From a virus, in IMG/VR virus record IMGVR_UViG_3300030108_002764, positions 1-31,781 of that record: 31,781 nucleotides of DNA; one strand, 5' to 3'. Positions within the stretch are counted from its first letter, which is position 1. Every line of letters begins with the position of its first letter. Below are positions 20,299 to 31,669 of the stretch, in pieces. Under the pieces are notes generated by a model, which did no database searches, was not told the origin of the DNA, and saw nothing but the letters and a program-made list of their open reading frames with translations. The position numbers were made by a program, and so were the translations under genes.

Positions 20299-20955
20299 AT
20301 GATAGGTTCAATATTACAGTTAGGCGGAAGTATATATGGTTTGTCTCAAGCTAATAAAGCTAATAAGGCTGCTGAAAAAGATTTAAAAAAAACACAAAAA
20401 GAACTAAATAAAGCTAAAGAAGCTTACTCTAATGTAGATACTAGTAATCCTTTTGCAGACTTAACTAATCCATACGCTGGTTTAGAAAACACATTAGAAG
20501 ACTTGACAGTTAATCAAAAACAAGCAGAGTTTCAATCTCAACAATTTCAACAAAGTCAAGCTAATATATTACAAGGTTTACGTGGAGCGGCTGGCGGTAG
20601 CGGTATAGCAGCACTAGCACAAACACTAGCGAGGCAAGGGCAGTTAGCAGCACAGCAATCAGCGGCTAGTATAGGAACTCAAGAAGCAGCAAATCAATTA
20701 GCGGCAGCTAAAGAAGCTGGTAGATTACAAACCGCAGAAGCTAGGGGTGAAGAACAAATGCAAGCAAGGATAGCACAAGGAGAGCAAGCTGCTCAAAAAA
20801 TGGAAATGGATAAACAAAAAGGATTATTTCAATTAGCGCAAAACGAACAGCAATTTGCTCAGCAACAACAAGTGGCAACTCAACAAGCAAAAGATCAAGC
20901 TGTAGCTGGAATATTTGAAGGCGTTGGAGAAATAGCAACTGGCTTAGGCATTTAA
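20299..20955 (+). CDS. Internal virion (ejection) protein, putative
   Basis: The 218-residue product starts with a short hydrophobic glycine-containing segment (MIGSILQLGGSIYGL), then becomes a long, Ala/Gln/Lys/Glu-rich helical protein with coiled-coil spacing. Inside it is a Gly/Ala-rich hinge at about residues 95-115 (LRGAAGGSGIAALAQTLARQ) and a hydrophobic end (GIFEGVGEIATGLGI). This composition, with amphipathic Ala-rich helices and hydrophobic ends, is typical of the small ejection proteins packaged in short-tailed phages and extruded to build a trans-envelope conduit. It is the first gene after promoter-like copy 2 and is followed 10 bases later by the next internal-protein gene. No enzymatic motif seen. 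Confidence 0.6.
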   Translation: MIGSILQLGGSIYGLSQANKANKAAEKDLKKTQKELNKAKEAYSNVDTSNPFADLTNPYAGLENTLEDLTVNQKQAEFQSQQFQQSQANILQGLRGAAGGSGIAALAQTLARQGQLAAQQSAASIGTQEAANQLAAAKEAGRLQTAEARGEEQMQARIAQGEQAAQKMEMDKQKGLFQLAQNEQQFAQQQQVATQQAKDQAVAGIFEGVGEIATGLGI

Positions 20956-20965
20956 AAATTAAATT

Positions 20966-21937
20966 ATGGCACAATATATACCACAAACACAAAGAGAAGG
21001 AGGAGAAGCTAAGCCACAATCAGTGCCTAGCAATAACGAAGCTTTATCTAAAATAATAAAAAATGAATTAAGTAGAACTGGCATGCATGACGAGTTTGAA
21101 AGAAATAGCTTAATCATGGATTTAGATAATAAAAAAGAAAATTATATTAAACAAAAAGATAATAAAATAGAGCAAAATAGAATTATTGAAGGATTAAATG
21201 AAAGAGCTAATATTGAAGTTTTTCATGATAGCCAAAAAAGAAATATGGCTACTATATTAAATGATCCATCTAGGTTTGGTTCAAATGCGTATGATAGATT
21301 AGGTGATGAAAACGCAAAGTTTTTTAGCTCAATAATAAGTAGTAGTATAATGCCTACTAATAGAAATAATATAATGGGATATGTTAATCCTGAAACAAAT
21401 GATTTTGTTTCTGCAGAAGAAATAAATGATATCTTGTCTTCTAACAATGTTGATAAATCTAGTATTGAAACAATGAAAGTTTTACTTGATGATACAATAA
21501 GACAAGCTGGAGAAATACAACCTTCTGAAAACTCAGATTTTAATTATCAAAAAGAGTTTGATAATATAAAAAATAAAGTTGTTGAAACTGGTAATTTGTA
21601 CTCACTAACTAACGATAAAATATTTGGTAATAGAGTATTTAAAAATGATTTAGAGTCTGCTATAATGAAAGGAACATATACCGATTTAGGAATAACAGCA
21701 GATCAAATAAAAGACCCAACACCAAAAGATGGTAAGATTACTGAAGCTGATGCTAAAAAAATTAGTGAAGCTTTGATAAAAGATGAAAACATGTTAAAAG
21801 ATTATTTAGCAGAATATTATACTAAAGCTTTAGAACAAAACTTTAATAACAACTTAAGCCCTGCTGTAAAAAGAAATAAAAAAATGAACCAATACACACC
21901 TCAGGCTATAGCATATAAGCCTGGCATGCAATTATAA
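20966..21937 (+). CDS. Probable internal virion protein, helical, unknown function
   Basis: The 323-residue product is hydrophilic, Asn/Lys/Asp/Glu-rich and mostly helical (DLDNKKENYIKQKDNKIEQN; FDNIKNKVVETGNLYSLTND). There are no cysteines, membrane segments or enzymatic motifs that I can identify. It sits between the small ejection protein and the giant multidomain protein in the same apparent transcript, so it is probably co-packaged and ejected with them. A short acidic stretch near residue 255 (DPTPKDGKITEADAKK) partly resembles a calcium loop but lacks the first and third ligands. Name withheld; role from context. Confidence 0.5.
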   Translation: MAQYIPQTQREGGEAKPQSVPSNNEALSKIIKNELSRTGMHDEFERNSLIMDLDNKKENYIKQKDNKIEQNRIIEGLNERANIEVFHDSQKRNMATILNDPSRFGSNAYDRLGDENAKFFSSIISSSIMPTNRNNIMGYVNPETNDFVSAEEINDILSSNNVDKSSIETMKVLLDDTIRQAGEIQPSENSDFNYQKEFDNIKNKVVETGNLYSLTNDKIFGNRVFKNDLESAIMKGTYTDLGITADQIKDPTPKDGKITEADAKKISEALIKDENMLKDYLAEYYTKALEQNFNNNLSPAVKRNKKMNQYTPQAIAYKPGMQL

Positions 21938-21965: not shown

Positions 21966-24900
21966 ATGGAAAGAGAAATGTATGTTATCACTGATAGTGA
22001 TGGTAATGAAAAGCCATATTTTGTCGAAAACGAAAACGACAAAATTGATTTATTTAATAATGCAAAAACAAATAATAAACAAGTGTATGACCAGTTTGGT
22101 AATACTGTAGATCTTAATAATATTCCTCAGCCGGGAAAGCAAGAAGGCTCCTCGACGGAAACGAAGACGGAGCAAATACAAGTCAACGAGACAAAATCGT
22201 CTCAAAACAATCAACAAGAAAATACGGAATCATCTTTGGTAGATACTTCTTCGGAATCACAATCAGTTAATAAAAGTAATTTTACTTCAGGTTTAGATTT
22301 TCAAAAAATATTAAAAAATAAAGAAAAAATAGTAAAATCTATACAATCAAAAAATATAATAAATTTAAATGAAGATGGAGCTTATTACACAGATCAAAAC
22401 GGTGAAATTGTTAATGAAGAAAATTTAACCAAAGACGAAAAGAATGCTTTAGAAGCAAAAAACAATGAGCTTAAAAAACCAAATATATATGATAAAGAAA
22501 ATATAACAAATAAAATATTAACTGGCAAGGCTGATACTACAGAAAAACAAGTTTATGCTTCTTTTGCTAATAAAAATAATTTATTTAGTAAACCAATAAA
22601 ATATACTGAAACTGATGACATACCGCCAGATGGTGGATTTTTTGAAGACTTATATATTAATTGGCAGCAAGGTCTTAATAATGCAAAAACTACAGATGAA
22701 GCATTAACTATTTTTAAAAGTGGTAATGAAGTTACTGATGAAGATATAAGAGCTTGGATTGACGCTGTTAATAAAATGGATGAAATAGGACCTACTCAAG
22801 AGCAAGTTTTATTTCAGAAAAAACAACAAGAATTAGGTGGTGGAGTTTTTGGCACATTAGGAGCTTTATATGAAAATCCAGGTTTTTTTCCGCAAATGCT
22901 AACAAGCTCTATAGCTACAATGATAGGCTCTTTTGTTGATTCAGATGAAATTAGAGAAGTAACTGCAGCATCTGCTGTTGTTGGGGCGGGAGCTGGTGCA
23001 GGTATTGGAGCTAGTTCAACGCCATATATTGGCGGTGCTGGTGCTATACCTGGCGCTATAACAGGTGCTATATCTGGCGCTATGGGTGGTTTAATTGGTT
23101 CTATGGAAACAGCTTTAACTTTTACAGAACTGTTTAAAGAAGAATTAGGTGAAAATGATTTTAATGAAGAAAATATTAGAAATATACTTAACGACCCTGA
23201 TGCTATTAAAAGAATGAAAAACCGAGCTGTAGGTAGAGGTATTGCTATTGGAGCTTTTGAATCTTTTACTTTAGGTTTGTCAAGAGGATTTGGGTCTGCT
23301 TTAGCAAAAACTGGATCATCAACATCAAAAGTATTAGCTGTAACAACGGCTACTGAAACAGGCGGTGCGTTCGTTGGTGAATTAGCTGGTCAAACAGCGG
23401 CTGGTCAAGAACTTGATTTTGGCGAAGCAACGTTGGAGGCTATTGGTGATATTGGTGACGTTTCTTTAGTTTCTGATATTGTATCTCAAACTTTTAAAAA
23501 AAGTGAGTATACAATAAATGGCGAAAATAGAACTAAACAAGAGGTAAATAATATAATAAACGATCCTGATATATCAACAGAAGATTTAGCCAAGATAGAT
23601 GTAAAAGTAAAAGGAGATAAAAACTTTTCTGACTTTGTTAAATCTAAACAAAATGATGCTGTGCTTGAAACTCAAATAGATCCTACAATAACTGGCATAG
23701 AAGACAGAAAAAAATTAGTAGATTTACAAAAAAGAAAAATTAAAGCAGAACAAGATGTAAAAAAGACAGGTGTTTTTAAGGTTATAGGCGCTGAAAAAAA
23801 ATTAGAAAATATTAATAACGAGATCAATGAAATTATAACTCCATATGAAGCTGTAGACGCTAGAACTTCAGATGTTAGAGCTCAGAAAAAAACTGCGAAA
23901 GAAGTTAGAGAAACAGTTGCTGATAAAGAATTTAAATCAAATTTAGAGTTTGCCAAAAAGCATAGTTCTATATATGGATTAAAAGTTGATGATACTCTAA
24001 CGCCTGAGCAAATAAAAAATGAATATGGAGAAGAAGCAGCAAGCTCAGATGGTTTTATAGTAGATGACAAAATAATAATAAACAAAAAAGTCGCTAGACA
24101 AGCTAGAGCTGTCAACGTAGGTAATCATGAACTTTTACATGGTATACTAAGAAAACAAATGAAAAATAAGCCTGACGCATTTAAAAACATTAGGCAAGAT
24201 TTAAAAAATGAAATTGGAGAACAATGGAACTCTGTAGAGCAAAGAGTTAAAGATGCTGGCTACACTGATCAATACATGCAAGATAATCCTGACGAGTGGA
24301 TAACGTTAACTTCTGATGCTATTGCTAACGGTGATATAACTTATTCTGAAAGTATATTTCAACCATTAGCAGATTTTTTCTTACCTATTCTTAGAGCTGC
24401 TGGATTTAAAAAAATAAAATTTGAAACAGGTAAAGATGTATTTAACTTTTTAAAAGAATATAATAAAAGTATACATAAAGGAGCTTTAAGTACTGGTATT
24501 ATTAGCGAAACAAAAGCTGAAGTAAAATCTGATGACATAAAGTTTTCAAGATCTTCGTTAATTGAGGATATAAATAAAATGCAAAAAACAGCTAAAACAA
24601 AAGCTGAGTTTCAAAATAGAAAAATATTTAATCCTATATATAGCTCTGTTACTCAACCTGGTGGAGCTGTAAATAACTACATAAGAAGTTTAAATCTAAC
24701 GCCAGAGCAAACCGAAAAAACTATAGATAATGTTGCTGACAGATTAATGAATTTTAATCCACAAACAACTAGAAAAACTGGTAGTAAAGAACCTATTACA
24801 TTAGGTGAGTTTATAATGTCTAATGTTGGCTTTGGTAGAAAAGATGCTGCTAAAGATTTAGCTATTGAAGCTGCTAAAACTAAACAAGAATTTAGAGTTG

Positions 24901-27900
24901 ATGTTACTAAAGATGGTGAAAGAAGCTTTGATATTGAAGACACAGCAGAGCAACAAGAAATTACATTAAATAGAACAAAAGATCAAGAATATTCTAAGCT
25001 AAGAAGAAAATTAAAGCTAGACAAGCCGATGATGGATCGGGTTCGTCAAGCTGTTACTAAAACTTTTGGCACAAAACTACCTGATGTTGAGTCAAAAAAA
25101 TTCAAACAAGAACTTCAAAAAAGATATAGAACAGAATTAAAAAAGCCTATACAAGATATGATAGGTACTAGAGATAATTATAAAAATTTCTTAGATAATA
25201 ACTTTGAATCTGTATACGAATTTTTACCTACATCGACATTGACTCAAATGGAAAGAAATATTCCTAATGAAAATAGAATATTTGTAAAAGCTAAAGAAAC
25301 TAATATATCACCTACTAGAGTTGATGAATTAGTTAGTCAAGGTAAGCTACCTAAAAATACTAATAGAACATCAGGGCCTACATTATTTGAAAAACAACCA
25401 TATCCTGGTAATGAAAAAGTAAATGCCTATTTTTTAGGAACAGACATGCAAAACCAATTAGGTTATGAAAGAGGAGCTTCTACGTTAGGTACCAGAAAAG
25501 ATAAATTAGCAATGTCTATAGCTGAAGAGCTTGGTTTCGATGCTACAATGGAAACTATACAAGATCCAGCTATACAAGAAAAGAGAGAGTTTTTAGTTGG
25601 TAAAGAAAAAGCTAGAACAGAAAGACCAACAATAGCAAAGCAAATAGATAGAGACCCTACTATTAAGTTTAGCAAACAAGTTAAAAATGCTTACAGAAAA
25701 AGCCCAGCTAATTTAGCTAAAGATAATAATATAAAATTAATACCTGGATCTTCTAAAACTAGAGTAAAAGATGCTATTTACAATAAAGAAACTAGAGAAA
25801 CGTTTGGACAAGCTAGAAATAGAGTTGTTAAAGATTTTTTAACAAAATATCCACAGTACAGATTAATATTACAAAAAGCTTTAACTGGTGGTAGCAAAAG
25901 ATCTATGTACGTAAGCGTTGGCGAATTTAATGAAGCAGCTGGCCCAGTACCAAAAGGTGTTAAGCTTATAAATGTTAAAAGAACAACTTACAATGAAAAT
26001 AGAAGATTTACTGAAAAGGCTTTTAAAAAATTTAAAACAAAAGAATTTAAACAAAACGAAGCAAAAAAATTAAAGGCTTTAAAAGACTTTTTTATAACAA
26101 TACAAGATTATTCAAAATCTATAAAAATTGACGGCAAAGTAAACCCTGATATGTTTGTATTTTTTGAAATGCTAAGAGACAGTAGCGCTGCTGGCCAAGG
26201 TCATATTATTAGAGTATTAGCTCCAGTTAAATTTTATACAGTTGACCAAAAAACTAAAAAACCTATATTTAATAAAGAAGTTGTTGAAGAACACACTGAT
26301 CCTCAAAATCAAATAGGCACAGCTTTAATGGACGCCGCTATAAATGAAAATGTAAATGAAGTGTTTGATGTTATAGGTGGTTCTTATATGCAAGGTTCTT
26401 TATTATTAGAAGGTGATAATTTAATAGCTAATAAAGAAAAAAATCCTAAAAAAAGAGATTTAACTAGAGATATGCCAGATATTTATTTTAATAAAATAAT
26501 ACCTAGAATAATATCAGGTGAATTAAAATTACCACCTGGCATGGCATCAGTTGTTAGGATGGCAGTGCAAGGGGTTAATTTAAATCAATTAATGCTTATT
26601 GATTCTAATCAAACAATGACTGAATTTTTTGATGTCGATATTAATACTAAAGACTTAACTAATGCTCAAATAGATTTTTTAGTTCCATATCAAAATGAAT
26701 TAATAGTAAAGCAGCTAACTAATAAAGACTTCACTAAAGCAAAAGCTCGTAATTCAATAAAAGAAATATCTAATACTGTTATAGATAATACTAATTTAAA
26801 ATCTAATAACAATATACAAAAAGCTTTGCAAAATAGAATTAAGTTTAGCAAAACAAATAAACGTAAAGGTATATCTGTTTTTGATTTTGATGACACGTTA
26901 GCTAAAACAAAATCAGGTATTAGAGCAACAATACCTAATCCTGATGGCACACCAAAGCCAAATCGTAAAGTTGTGTTTTTAGCTGGTGGAGCTGGTAGCG
27001 GTAAAGGTAACGTTATAAGTAAATTAGGTTTGTCTCAACAAGGATTTAAAATAGTAAACTCTGACATATCACTAGAGTGGTTAAAGAAAAACTCAGGTTT
27101 ACCTGCAGACATGAGAGATTTAACAAAAGAACAGAGAAGTACTTTAGGTAAGTTAGGAGCTCAAGCTAGAAAAATAGCTAGAGGAAAAATGATGAAATAC
27201 CAAGGTAATGCTAATGGAGTTGTGGTTGACGGCACTGGTGGTAGCGTAAAATCAATGCAGAAGCTCGTAGATGAATTTAAATCTAAAGGATATGATGTTA
27301 GTATGTTATTTGTAGATACTTCGTTAGATGTAGCCTTAGAGCGTAATAGAGCTAGAAAAGAAAGATCGTTGTTAGATGTTATAGTTAAGCGTAACCATGA
27401 GTCAGTACAAAATAATAAATCTACATTTCAAAGTATGTTTGGTGATAGATTTATGGAAGTTAATACTGATAACCTAACTCAAGCTAGCCCCATGCCTATG
27501 AATCTAGTAAATGACATGAACGATTTTGTTAGTGGTTATGAAAAAGTTAGATTAGACGCTGAGCAGTTTGCAGCTGAAGGTGAATCTATATTAGAGCGAG
27601 GTGGCGAGTTTGATTTTTCAGAGTTTAATGATGTTGTTGACGGAACACCTGGTCCATTGCTAGACAAAGCAAAACAAAGAATAGATAAGTTTGGAAACAA
27701 AGATGTATTTGTTTTAACTGCTAGACCTCAAGCTTCAGCTGGACCTATACAGCAATTTTTAAAATCACAAGGTTTAAATATACCTATAGACAACATAACT
27801 GGTTTAGCTAACAGCACTGGTGACGCTAAAGCAGAGTGGATGTTAGGTAAATTTGCAGAAGGATATAACGATATGTATTTTGTAGACGATGCTATACAAA

Positions 27901-30317
27901 ATGTCGAAGCTGTTAAGCAAGTTTTAAATCAATTAGATGTTAAGTCTAATGTTGTTCAAGCTAAAGTAAAGTTTAGTAAAAATGCTAGCAAAGAGCTAAA
28001 CGATATGATTGAGCGTAAAAAAGGTATTGGTAGTGAAAAAGTATTTTCTGGAGCTGAAGCTAGAGCTCGCGGTAAAAATATAGGTAGATTTGATTTTTAT
28101 ATACCACCATCGGCTGAAGATTTTAAAGGTTTATTATATTACTTTTTAGGCAAAGGTAAGCGAGGCGATGCTGATATGAAATTTTTTAGCGATAACTTAT
28201 TAAAACCTTTTGCAAATGGCATTAGAACTTGGAATACATATAAGCAAAACATGGCTGACGATTTTAGAAATCTTAAAAAACAAAATCCTAAAGTTGTTAA
28301 AAAATTAAATAATAAAATAGAAGGGACTAGTTTTACTAACGATACTGCCATAAGGGTTTATTTATGGGACAAAGCTGGTAAAGAAATACCTAATATATCT
28401 TCAAGCTTACAAACAAGATTAGTTAATCACGTGAATAATAATTTAGATTTAAAATCTTTTGCTGATAATATTTCAACTATAACTAAAATAAGTGAAGGTT
28501 ATACTACACCAGGACAAAATTGGGTTGTTGGTAGTATTGCTAGAGATTTATCTGATACTGTAAACAAAGTTGGTAGAAAACAGTTTTTAGCTGAGTGGAT
28601 AGATAATAAAGATCAAATATTTACTACTGAAAACTTAAATAAAATAGAAGCTGCTTACGGAACTAGATATAGAGAAGCTTTAGAAAATATATTATTTCGT
28701 ATGGAAAATGGCGGCAATAGAGTTATGAGTAAAGATAGAGACACTAACTTTATTGTTAATTGGATTAATGGCGCTGTTGGTTCTATAATGTTCTTTAATA
28801 TGAGATCGGCATTGCTTCAAACTATATCGGCTGTTAACTTTATAAACTTTAGCGATAATAATATATTTAAAGCAACAAAAGCTTTTGCTAATCAACCACA
28901 GTTTTGGAAAGACTTTACAATGTTATTTAACTCTGACCAACTTAAACAAAGAAGAAGAGGTTTGCAAACAGATGTTTCTTCTTCTGAGCTTGTTAAATCG
29001 TTTAAAGAAAATGGCAATTCATATCAAGCTGTAGTTAACTTTTTATTAGAAAAAGGTTTTACACCTACGCAAATAGCAGATAGTACAGCTATTGCTTTTG
29101 GTGGTGCTAGTTTTTATAGAAATAGATATAACAAATATATTAAAGACGGTAAGTCGCCTAAAGAAGCCAATGAGCAAGCGATGTTAGACTTTCAAGAAAT
29201 AGCAGAAGAAACACAACAGTCATCAAGAGAAGATTTAGTTTCTAAACAACAAGCTAGCGTACTAGGTCGTATTATATTAGCTTTTCAAAACGTTACAATG
29301 CAATACGGTAGATTAACCAAGAAAGCTTTATCTGATTTAGTTAATCGTAGAGGTGATACTAAAACTAATATATCTAAAATATTATACTATGGTGCTGTGC
29401 AAAATATAGTATTTGCTAGCTTACAATCAGCTTTATTATTTATGATGTTTGGGGGCAGTGACGAAGAAGATGAAGTAATACAAGAAAAAGAAAATAGAGT
29501 AGCTAATAGCGTATTAGATTCATTTTTAAGAGGTACTGGTATTTACGGAGCGTTAGCATCAACATTAAAAAACGTAGCTGTAGAGTGGCACGTGCAATCA
29601 CAAAAAGCTAAAGAAGGTTTTAAAAGAGATGATGTAATGAAAATAGCTCAAGAAGCTTTAAACTTATCTCCTCCAATTGGTGCTAAAGTTAGAAAAATAG
29701 TTCAAGCTTATAAAATGAAAGAGTTTGGTAGAACTGCTGTTAGAGATAAACTAAATTTTAGATTAGAAGATCCTAAACTAGCTTCAGCCGCAGCTATAAT
29801 AGAAGGTATTACAAATATACCTACACAAAGACTTTTAAATAAAGCTAATAACTTAGAAGAAGCTATAACTAGTGATCATGAAACATGGAAGCGTGTAGCT
29901 ATGGTTTTAGGTTGGAGTAGATGGGAGCTAGGATTAAAAGATGAAGAAGTTGAAGCCGCTAGAGAAGAAGTAAAAGAAGAAAAGAAAGAAGAAAGAAAAG
30001 AAAAATTAGAAATAATAAAAAAAGAAAAAGAAAAAAAGAAACAAGAGCAAAAGAAAAAAGAAGAAGAAGAAAAGAAAAAGAAAGGTATTAAAACAGTTAG
30101 ATGTTCTGGTATAAAATCTGATGGTAAAAGATGTAAAATAACTACTGAAACAGCAGATAAAAAATTCTTATGTGTTCATCATGCTGAGTTTAAAGATGGC
30201 ATGGATAGAGACGGTGATGGCAAGAAAGAATACAGATGTACTGCTACAACTTCTTCAGGTAAAAGGTGTAAGAACAAAACAGAGAATAAAAACAAAAAGT
30301 GTTATGCTCACCAATAA
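21966..30317 (+). CDS. Giant multidomain (polyvalent-type) ejected protein: peptidase-like, kinase-in-HAD phosphatase, membrane segments, zinc fingers
   Basis: 2,783 residues, uninterrupted. In order: residues 1-105, an N-terminal cap and a polar linker; about 335-385, a Gly/Ala-rich hydrophobic stretch (VVGAGAGAGIGASS onward) suited to membrane insertion; 721-725 HELLH with a likely third zinc ligand E777 (NPDEWITLTSDAI); 858-1624, two modules with no recognised fold; 1640-1644 HAD motif I (DFDDT); 1674-1681 P-loop (GGAGSGKG) of a zeta-toxin/polynucleotide-kinase-like domain; 1918 HAD motif II (VLTAR); 1974-1975 HAD motif IV (VDD); about 2262-2500, a C-terminal module with two hydrophobic segments (IMFFNMRSALLQTI; NIVFASLQSALLFMMF); a Lys/Glu coiled coil 2659-2710; and two C-C-C-H fingers at 2713-2782. 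Pentapeptides [IV]KFS[KR] at 858, 1233, 1625 and 2001 mark module joints. It closes the ejection-protein operon, so delivery with DNA is likely. Start at 21966; an in-frame ATG at 21978 is possible. Confidence 0.75.
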   Translation: MEREMYVITDSDGNEKPYFVENENDKIDLFNNAKTNNKQVYDQFGNTVDLNNIPQPGKQEGSSTETKTEQIQVNETKSSQNNQQENTESSLVDTSSESQSVNKSNFTSGLDFQKILKNKEKIVKSIQSKNIINLNEDGAYYTDQNGEIVNEENLTKDEKNALEAKNNELKKPNIYDKENITNKILTGKADTTEKQVYASFANKNNLFSKPIKYTETDDIPPDGGFFEDLYINWQQGLNNAKTTDEALTIFKSGNEVTDEDIRAWIDAVNKMDEIGPTQEQVLFQKKQQELGGGVFGTLGALYENPGFFPQMLTSSIATMIGSFVDSDEIREVTAASAVVGAGAGAGIGASSTPYIGGAGAIPGAITGAISGAMGGLIGSMETALTFTELFKEELGENDFNEENIRNILNDPDAIKRMKNRAVGRGIAIGAFESFTLGLSRGFGSALAKTGSSTSKVLAVTTATETGGAFVGELAGQTAAGQELDFGEATLEAIGDIGDVSLVSDIVSQTFKKSEYTINGENRTKQEVNNIINDPDISTEDLAKIDVKVKGDKNFSDFVKSKQNDAVLETQIDPTITGIEDRKKLVDLQKRKIKAEQDVKKTGVFKVIGAEKKLENINNEINEIITPYEAVDARTSDVRAQKKTAKEVRETVADKEFKSNLEFAKKHSSIYGLKVDDTLTPEQIKNEYGEEAASSDGFIVDDKIIINKKVARQARAVNVGNHELLHGILRKQMKNKPDAFKNIRQDLKNEIGEQWNSVEQRVKDAGYTDQYMQDNPDEWITLTSDAIANGDITYSESIFQPLADFFLPILRAAGFKKIKFETGKDVFNFLKEYNKSIHKGALSTGIISETKAEVKSDDIKFSRSSLIEDINKMQKTAKTKAEFQNRKIFNPIYSSVTQPGGAVNNYIRSLNLTPEQTEKTIDNVADRLMNFNPQTTRKTGSKEPITLGEFIMSNVGFGRKDAAKDLAIEAAKTKQEFRVDVTKDGERSFDIEDTAEQQEITLNRTKDQEYSKLRRKLKLDKPMMDRVRQAVTKTFGTKLPDVESKKFKQELQKRYRTELKKPIQDMIGTRDNYKNFLDNNFESVYEFLPTSTLTQMERNIPNENRIFVKAKETNISPTRVDELVSQGKLPKNTNRTSGPTLFEKQPYPGNEKVNAYFLGTDMQNQLGYERGASTLGTRKDKLAMSIAEELGFDATMETIQDPAIQEKREFLVGKEKARTERPTIAKQIDRDPTIKFSKQVKNAYRKSPANLAKDNNIKLIPGSSKTRVKDAIYNKETRETFGQARNRVVKDFLTKYPQYRLILQKALTGGSKRSMYVSVGEFNEAAGPVPKGVKLINVKRTTYNENRRFTEKAFKKFKTKEFKQNEAKKLKALKDFFITIQDYSKSIKIDGKVNPDMFVFFEMLRDSSAAGQGHIIRVLAPVKFYTVDQKTKKPIFNKEVVEEHTDPQNQIGTALMDAAINENVNEVFDVIGGSYMQGSLLLEGDNLIANKEKNPKKRDLTRDMPDIYFNKIIPRIISGELKLPPGMASVVRMAVQGVNLNQLMLIDSNQTMTEFFDVDINTKDLTNAQIDFLVPYQNELIVKQLTNKDFTKAKARNSIKEISNTVIDNTNLKSNNNIQKALQNRIKFSKTNKRKGISVFDFDDTLAKTKSGIRATIPNPDGTPKPNRKVVFLAGGAGSGKGNVISKLGLSQQGFKIVNSDISLEWLKKNSGLPADMRDLTKEQRSTLGKLGAQARKIARGKMMKYQGNANGVVVDGTGGSVKSMQKLVDEFKSKGYDVSMLFVDTSLDVALERNRARKERSLLDVIVKRNHESVQNNKSTFQSMFGDRFMEVNTDNLTQASPMPMNLVNDMNDFVSGYEKVRLDAEQFAAEGESILERGGEFDFSEFNDVVDGTPGPLLDKAKQRIDKFGNKDVFVLTARPQASAGPIQQFLKSQGLNIPIDNITGLANSTGDAKAEWMLGKFAEGYNDMYFVDDAIQNVEAVKQVLNQLDVKSNVVQAKVKFSKNASKELNDMIERKKGIGSEKVFSGAEARARGKNIGRFDFYIPPSAEDFKGLLYYFLGKGKRGDADMKFFSDNLLKPFANGIRTWNTYKQNMADDFRNLKKQNPKVVKKLNNKIEGTSFTNDTAIRVYLWDKAGKEIPNISSSLQTRLVNHVNNNLDLKSFADNISTITKISEGYTTPGQNWVVGSIARDLSDTVNKVGRKQFLAEWIDNKDQIFTTENLNKIEAAYGTRYREALENILFRMENGGNRVMSKDRDTNFIVNWINGAVGSIMFFNMRSALLQTISAVNFINFSDNNIFKATKAFANQPQFWKDFTMLFNSDQLKQRRRGLQTDVSSSELVKSFKENGNSYQAVVNFLLEKGFTPTQIADSTAIAFGGASFYRNRYNKYIKDGKSPKEANEQAMLDFQEIAEETQQSSREDLVSKQQASVLGRIILAFQNVTMQYGRLTKKALSDLVNRRGDTKTNISKILYYGAVQNIVFASLQSALLFMMFGGSDEEDEVIQEKENRVANSVLDSFLRGTGIYGALASTLKNVAVEWHVQSQKAKEGFKRDDVMKIAQEALNLSPPIGAKVRKIVQAYKMKEFGRTAVRDKLNFRLEDPKLASAAAIIEGITNIPTQRLLNKANNLEEAITSDHETWKRVAMVLGWSRWELGLKDEEVEAAREEVKEEKKEERKEKLEIIKKEKEKKKQEQKKKEEEEKKKKGIKTVRCSGIKSDGKRCKITTETADKKFLCVHHAEFKDGMDRDGDGKKEYRCTATTSSGKRCKNKTENKNKKCYAHQ

Positions 30318-30759: not shown

Positions 30760-31061
30760 TGGCAGGAATATATAAAAGATTTGCAGGCGCAGCTAGTAAT
30801 CAATCTTTAATAACTAAAGGTAGTGGAGTAAGTGGTAATATTAGAAAAATATTAATAGCTAACGAAGACTCTGCTATTACTAAAGTAACAATTGATTTAC
30901 ACGATGGTTCAACTACTTTTGTTATAATAAAAGAAGTTGAAATACCAGTTAGCTCTTCGCTAGTATTATCAGATAATGTTTCTTTTGATAGTAATATTTT
31001 TAGTTTAAGAATAACAACGTCAGGTACAGGTACGCCTACAGTAACAGTAATAATAAAATAA
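30759..31061 (+). CDS. Small beta-sandwich-like virion protein, putative
   Basis: The 100-residue product opens MAGIYKRFAGAASNQSLITK and is then built of regular alternating strands (KILIANEDSAITKVTIDLHD; TFVIIKEVEIPVSSSLVLSD), ending SGTGTPTVTVIIK. I recall proteins with this 'YKRF...' opening and the 'IANEDS...V.I.L.DG' strand from many marine phages, where they are unannotated or called structural. Composition resembles that of the 111-residue protein at 49-384, although I see no convincing alignment between the two. TAATG overlaps both neighbours. A decoration or appendage protein is plausible. Confidence 0.55.
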   Translation: MAGIYKRFAGAASNQSLITKGSGVSGNIRKILIANEDSAITKVTIDLHDGSTTFVIIKEVEIPVSSSLVLSDNVSFDSNIFSLRITTSGTGTPTVTVIIK

Positions 31062-31669
31062 TGGAATTAAATAAAGACATAATAGAAAAAGCAGTAAAAT
31101 GCAAAGGTTATAGATGGTTTGAAAATGGTGATTATAACCTTAATATAGTAGGTATTAGAAACTCTGATACTGGAAATGAAGTAACAAATAAGTTTGACGA
31201 TAAAATAACATTGTCATTTAAGTGTGATGATCAATGGGAATTTTATTGCTATGACTGCACTACAGACCCAGGTAGATATTGGGTAGAAAATATAATGAGA
31301 GTAGAAGGCGTGGCAGTATTAAAAGAAGGACAGTTTCCTGGCTCACATAAAATTAGATTACATCAAGGTAGATATGAAGCGTTAGGTCAGTGTAGACCAG
31401 TTACAGTTTACCGTGATGCTAATAGAGACGGTAAGTTTGATTTAAGCGATGATAATACACAAACAGGTTTGTTTGGAATTAATATACATAGAGCAACAAA
31501 GTGGGGTGGTAAAAAATCTACTAAGGTAGATAAATGGTCTGCTGGTTGCCAAGTAATAGCAGCTAATGATGATTGGCACGAGTTTATGGATATATGTAGA
31601 GTTGCTAGAGATAAGTGGGGTAATAGCTTTACTTATACATTATTAGAAAGTAACGATTTAGATATATAA
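31061..31669 (+). CDS. Putative peptidoglycan-acting enzyme (L,D-transpeptidase/YkuD-like signature), candidate lysin
   Basis: The 202-residue product contains INIHRATKWGG, then VDKWSAGCQVIA: H143, sixteen residues, then S160-A-G-C163. This matches the spacing of the L,D-transpeptidase signature (H-x14-17-[ST]-H-G-C), with Cys163 as the likely nucleophile, but the His of HGC is replaced by Ala161. Upstream, D119-A-N121-R-D123-G-K-F-D127 looks like a calcium-binding loop. The N-terminal half has the pattern NLNIVGIRN ... TTDPGRYW, which I recall from a family widespread in Bacteroidota phages and prophages. There is no signal peptide, so export would need a holin or tail delivery. As a phage enzyme of this fold it more likely cleaves than cross-links the wall. 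Family fold moderately sure; activity inferred. Confidence 0.6.
   Translation: MELNKDIIEKAVKCKGYRWFENGDYNLNIVGIRNSDTGNEVTNKFDDKITLSFKCDDQWEFYCYDCTTDPGRYWVENIMRVEGVAVLKEGQFPGSHKIRLHQGRYEALGQCRPVTVYRDANRDGKFDLSDDNTQTGLFGINIHRATKWGGKKSTKVDKWSAGCQVIAANDDWHEFMDICRVARDKWGNSFTYTLLESNDLDI

Follow-up and report, generated by a model that had tools for sequence, protein, structure and literature searches.

A giant polyvalent protein at the end of a phage virion gene block, with exchangeable modules, a kinase fold nested in a phosphatase and a recurrent motif at its module junctions

The window analysed here is the complete 31.8-kb virus record IMGVR_UViG_3300030108_002764 (31,781 nucleotides, GC 31.5%). 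The giant gene described below, with its parts, and the two genes before it lie on the + strand. Terminase, portal and capsid-type proteins were recognised by matches to PHROG families, and the genes for TerL, portal, MCP and virion proteins all lie upstream of a giant gene at positions 21966..30317. As stated in the original prediction, this gene is a single uninterrupted frame with an ATG start, encoding 2783 amino acids (aa). This gene closes the virion block and follows two small internal-type genes, of which one encodes a 218-aa Gln/Ala-rich protein (20299..20955) and the other a 323-aa protein (20966..21937) with weak similarity (E=1.7e-4) to the 644-aa protein directly before the giant gene of MW202828. 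A GroES-like co-chaperonin gene (phrog_13932, 1773-2354) adjoins the terminase, as it does in Elemovirus and Cellulophaga relatives, and an endolysin-like protein (phrog_3000, phrog_33083) is encoded downstream of the giant gene at 31061-31669.

The terminase is closest to that of MW202828 (62%), followed by Elemovirus (46%) and by Maribacter phage Panino, Pachyviridae and Pervagoviridae (31-42%). Because of these similarities the window phage is probably short-tailed. It is a marine-type phage related to Elemovirus, Pervagoviridae and Pachyviridae. Flavobacteriia are the hosts of its cultured relatives, and its own host is probably a member of the Bacteroidota. A host search in genome contigs gave nine MAG contigs only, two of them from Bacteroidota (Sphingobacteriales and Saprospiraceae), which are probably phage contamination.

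In MW202828, elemoA, phi38:1/phi40:1, phi46:3 and Panino the TerL-portal-capsid-virion block ends in one or two long genes, while Tenacibaculum phage Gundel_1 has a different order with the giant gene before TerL. The position of the window gene is that of gp101 in Cellulophaga phage phi40:1. Both gp100 (549 aa) and gp101 (1691 aa) of phi40:1 carry the GenBank note 'annotation based on experimental MS/MS proteomics analysis', and elemo gp21, at the same position, is annotated as structural. No sequence similarity was detectable between the giant protein and phi38:1 gp101, which is 99.9% identical to phi40:1 gp101, and a search for proteomics data on the window phage or its close relatives found none. 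We thus infer the presence of the giant protein in the virion from its position, with experimental support in the relative phi40:1. The placement after two internal-type genes, on which the idea of ejected cargo had originally been built, agrees with this.

From N- to C-terminus the giant protein consists of a leader, variable modules, a HEXXH...E metallopeptidase, two further variable modules, a HAD phosphatase with an inserted kinase, a helical C-terminus and two zinc fingers, and it combines at least two unrelated functional domains (peptidase motif, HAD, kinase and zinc fingers). Most of the features that had been predicted are present: the Gly/Ala segment at residues ~334-378 (58% G+A), the HELLH motif at residues 721-725 with a conserved Glu downstream (E777), HAD motifs I-IV, the first two of which are separated by an inserted P-loop kinase, and two C-terminal zinc-finger-like CxnCxnCxxH sequence motifs at residues 2713-2739 (30102..30182) and 2758-2782 (30237..30311). 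The predicted membrane modules are not supported: at a mild Kyte-Doolittle threshold a single segment passes, residues 2476-2499, and this hydrophobicity peak (1.57) is no higher than in shuffled sequence (mean of maxima 1.66). Structure prediction, which had been proposed as a check, gave separable domains with fair to good confidence, and therefore speaks against a chain that lacks them.

The N-terminal leader (residues 1-60; 21966..22145) is defined by a family profile and is followed by a Ser/Gln/Asn-rich linker. The profile, made from 30 N-termini, recovered the first ~50 residues in 22 of 30 held-out relatives. Its matches are almost always confined to the N-terminus, sometimes in two copies, and the leader seems to be tandemly doubled at the N-termini of four relatives (L028, L069, L075 and L095). 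The phi38:1 gp101 and MW202828 giant proteins also start with tandem short repeats, of another kind. Since the profile did not match other ORFs of the same loci, a tag common to other virion genes was rejected. Followed as it is by the variable region, the leader may be the packaging or ejection signal.

The variable N module (residues 217-640; 22614..23885), which includes the Gly/Ala segment, shares homology with phrog_32588 and with the N-terminal third of the 3859-aa MW202828 giant protein, where it matches residues 510-714 (HHalign E 2.2e-9). The domain that follows (residues 660-850; 23943..24515) matches elemo gp21 residues 1518-1660 around a HEIFH motif (HHalign E 2.5e-6). HEXXH is present in all 72 complete non-redundant relatives (1.5 expected from composition) and precedes the HAD motif by 1019 aa in the median, and the Glu ~55 residues after HELLH is kept in most aligned rows. 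The Pfam family MPTase-PolyVal (PF18818) gave no sequence match to the giant protein, whose HEXXH domain fits a putative zincin metallopeptidase.

The conserved all-helical C-terminal region (residues ~2040-2690; 28083..30035) was searched with Foldseek against BFVD, where it matched family members (35-69% identical) and many giant phage proteins over 700-1200 columns, with E 1e-7 to 1e-13 and TM-scores of ~0.3-0.43. Several of these matches carry polyvalent annotations (PolyVal ADP-ribosyltransferase, large polyvalent protein associated domain), which is in line with the predicted polyvalent type and, alongside gene position and the phi40:1 equivalents, supports the inferred role as virion cargo. 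A Pfam scan of the giant protein found no LPD match; LPD38 (PF18857) gave no sequence match, a search in which the controls were silent too, and one relative has a sub-threshold LPD14 match. In the fold search of residues 640-1640, chains of the T7 core and the PhiM1 ejectosome appear only at E 7 to 9, a meaningless level.

The giant protein belongs to a large, unnamed family. Whole-protein searches found 11 relatives, and a search with an alignment of the C-terminus found 266 IMG/VR stretches that encode relatives; 80 loci were retained from these. Identity among relatives is 44-90% over the C-terminal ~930-1170 aa, and relationship in the N-terminal regions is often undetectable. Terminases in a sample of 21 family phages are mostly 81-93% identical, so the N-terminal differences reflect replacement and not age; modules are swapped even between phages with ~90% identical terminases. 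Two relatives, L011 (contig G011:C1:32818-35041) and L040 (contig G018:C1:15974-18200), have a terminase split between two ORFs, due to a frameshift, an assembly error or an intervening element.

Between the peptidase and the HAD phosphatase lie the exchangeable modules A (residues 866-1232; 24561..25661), with no known fold, and B (residues 1240-1620; 25683..26825), with a confidently predicted fold and no PDB match. A fold search against the PDB with a 1001-residue model of residues 640-1640, spanning the peptidase and both modules, gave nothing significant. Combined alignments with many partial rows were misaligned, and a smaller curated set was used for folding. In one relative (L040) the peptidase and module B are both kept at 73%, but module A is not; two others (L066 and L077) have kept module A (54% and 46%) with an identity of only 54-55% in the chassis, the leader and helical C-terminus taken together, and a fourth (L001) combines a chassis identity of 90% with 48% in module A and no module B. 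The kinase can be more alike than the chassis (76% vs 47% in L057). In these comparisons the modules move independently of each other.

The sequence IKFSK, or a close variant of it, occurs exactly four times in the giant protein, as IKFSR at residues 858-862 (24537..24551), IKFSK at residues 1233-1237 (25662..25676) and 1625-1629 (26838..26852) and VKFSK at residues 2001-2005 (27966..27980). These are all four of the module junctions drawn in the original prediction, whose boundaries 857/858, 1232/1233, 1624/1625 and 2000/2001 coincide exactly with the motif and with homology ends. The flanks of the four sites are mutually unrelated. Using the pattern [ILVM][KRML][FY]S[KR], which was chosen after the giant protein's own sites had been seen, we counted 71 copies over 75 proteins vs 8.2 in shuffles; same-junction copies in different relatives are partly homologous, so these counts are not independent events. 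Controls with reversed order or with Thr were not enriched. In 73 complete proteins, 66 of 67 copies lie at four equivalent junctions: 44 are in windows that directly follow the peptidase or lie on either side of the HAD, three windows that together cover 9% of the length, and 22 of the remaining 23 are at 0.50-0.65 of the peptidase-to-HAD distance, which is the A|B junction, a fourth window that was recognised only after the count. Some relatives have no recognisable copies at some or all junctions. In the structure models the four sites of the giant protein fall within or next to segments of low confidence. The rate in the family is 0.295 per 1000 aa vs 0.007 in the other ORFs of the same loci (one copy in 144,118 aa).

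The HAD phosphatase is split into a first part with DFDDT at residue 1640 as motif I (residues 1635-1654; 26868..26927) and a second part with LTAR at 1917, K1955 and DD at 1974-1975 (residues 1856-1998; 27531..27959). These motifs flank a P-loop kinase domain of the polynucleotide-kinase/zeta-like type (residues 1655-1855; 26928..27530), in which Pfam matched residues 1665-1816 with AAA_33 (E=2e-9) and Zeta_toxin (E=1.2e-7). The kinase insert is missing in half of the family, where relatives such as L007-L010 have an uninterrupted HAD, and its presence and absence requires at least five gains or losses on a tree of the chassis built without the insert. No stand-alone copy of the kinase was found by sequence in 15 contigs of kinase-less relatives. 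Kinase relatives (L020, L021 and L022) are ~220-aa proteins in T4-like Pelagibacter and Methylophilales phages and part of a 778-aa protein of Agrobacterium phage Atu_ph07. The best PDB matches of the AlphaFold model (pLDDT 76) in Foldseek are T4 Pnkp and the Pnkp1/Rnl/Hen1 complex (E 5e-5 to 1e-4), and when superposed by itself the kinase reaches a TM-score of 0.64 with clostridial polynucleotide kinase; whole-model TM-scores to Pnkp are low and the domain arrangement differs. A P-loop kinase and a HAD phosphatase fold are combined in one protein, as in Pnkp, but the tandem order of Pnkp is not kept.

An Rnl2-like RNA ligase is encoded in 8 of 45 relative contigs, and 7 of these 8 are among the ten contigs of at least 60 kb. 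The ligases are ~283-292 aa long (contigs of L004, L008, L009, L066, L068, L070, L091 and L037), and the L037 frame is shorter and near the contig end. Six of the eight carriers lack the kinase, so a ligase partnership specific to kinase carriers was rejected and a dedicated RNA-repair pair is not favoured. A search for T4 Rnl1-type ligases found none, with the control silent too.

The presence of one short motif at each module junction suggests that the giant protein may be cut into parts. We regard the motif as a candidate site at which the built-in peptidase processes its own chain, because the chain never lacks a peptidase and the motif is hardly seen outside it; self-cleavage at the motif is a possibility that we rate at somewhat below even odds. 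A packaged polyvalent protein might alternatively use the motif for docking, or as a threading pause, by binding a component of the portal, the tail or a chaperone. This reading, which we consider rather doubtful, fits the location of the four sites in or beside flexible linkers, the near-confinement of the motif to the giant protein and the behaviour of crassvirus cargo proteins, which are thought to unfold partly and pass through portal and tail (PMC10172136), but no binding partner is known and every chain also carries a peptidase. The junctions could also be recombination joints, short shared DNA for module exchange without a function at the protein level. Of 207 homology ends, 50 do lie within 15 aa of the motif (10 expected), and two of the four sites are identical over 15 bases, yet the codons differ between sites (TTTTCAAGA vs TTTAGCAAA) while the peptide is unchanged, and the motif persists where the flanks are unrelated. 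DNA repeats as the full explanation were therefore rejected, and recombination joints are an unlikely reading.

For the nested kinase-phosphatase, which resembles RNA-repair enzymes, healing of RNA or DNA ends is plausible, at only slightly less than an even chance. A serious rival, with a chance of about one in three by our estimate, is a kinase of zeta or nucleotide type with a small-molecule substrate, for example UDP-GlcNAc, paired with a HAD nucleotidase and aimed at host metabolism or signalling nucleotides. Zeta_toxin scores 31.8 bits against a Pfam cut-off of 22.3, the Foldseek matches include structures of zeta toxin and adenylate kinase, the closest relative is named 'UDP-N-acetylglucosamine kinase' in UniProt, and the HAD stands alone in half of the family. 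AAA_33 outscores Zeta_toxin, however, and the best structural matches are RNA-repair kinase-phosphatases that pair the same two folds. For the protein as a whole, the 'structural' annotation of equivalent proteins would also suit a structural protein of the tail or the virion interior (inner core or tape-like) with incidental enzymatic modules and no delivery to the cytoplasm. Conserved catalytic residues and extreme module exchange beside a near-fixed terminase suit effectors better than architecture, and make a purely structural protein improbable.

We therefore favour, with a probability of roughly 0.6, a packaged, modular polyvalent protein. The virion of a short-tailed phage would package the giant protein and deliver it together with the DNA. 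The leader and the helical C-terminus would serve as a chassis, with exchangeable effector modules between them around the ever-present zincin metallopeptidase. The IKFSK-type junctions would most likely mark cuts by the protein's own peptidase, at packaging or after delivery, after which the modules would act separately. The HAD with its polynucleotide-kinase-like insert would most likely heal RNA or DNA ends as a counter to host RNase-based defences, converting 5'-OH to 5'-P and removing 3'-P. The full sequence of events is rather unlikely to be correct in every step: the virion would deliver a polyprotein that brings its own protease and has a dedicated cleavage motif per module boundary, and effectors exchanged between these fixed cut sites would be freed separately in the host, among them an end-healing kinase-phosphatase that arrives ahead of phage gene expression.

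Once delivered, polyvalent proteins might work as a single chain or as parts set free from it. The passages on autoproteolysis in Iyer et al. (PMC5512222) propose it mainly from the presence of peptidase domains, and a junction-confined motif gives this idea a specific target. The motif also makes it possible to read module borders straight from the sequences of hundreds of environmental phages. RNA repair would travel in the virion, with no need for prior expression, if the kinase-phosphatase heals RNA ends.

T4 Pnkp and bacterial Pnkp1, the top Foldseek matches, likewise combine a P-loop 5'-kinase-like fold with a HAD phosphatase with DxDxT. In T4 Pnkp the kinase is N-terminal to the phosphatase. 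The same order is found in jumbo-phage forms of Pnkp (PMC7824862), whereas in the giant protein the kinase lies after HAD motif I and is optional. Zeta toxin and AAA_33 kinases share Pfam matches above cut-off with the inserted kinase, which is embedded in a giant virion-type protein and not encoded by a small toxin-antitoxin gene as zeta toxin is. Elemovirus gp21 (3694 aa), the MW202828 giant protein (3859 aa) and phi40:1 gp101 (1691 aa) occupy the same place at the end of the virion gene block; gp21 shares a homologous metallopeptidase and MW202828 a homologous N module, but nearly all other modules of the Elemovirus, MW202828 and Pervagoviridae giants are unrelated and the junction motif is essentially absent from them. 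The crassvirus cargo proteins (PMC10172136) are likewise very large, and are carried in virions of Bacteroidota phages; the largest of them differ in being associated with RNA polymerase. Large polyvalent proteins (DdrB/DarB-like, LPD, MPTase-containing), as described in the passages considered from Iyer et al. 2017 (PMC5512222), share with it a very long chain, several unrelated enzymatic domains, a zincin metallopeptidase (putative in the giant protein), a virion-gene neighbourhood and a structurally similar helical C-terminal region; the MPTase-PolyVal and LPD38 models are silent on the giant protein, and the same passages make no mention of a P-loop kinase inserted in a HAD or of the junction motif. 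The giant protein is a polyvalent protein with a new arrangement, in which the exchangeable-module anatomy, the optional kinase inside the phosphatase and the junction motif are new.
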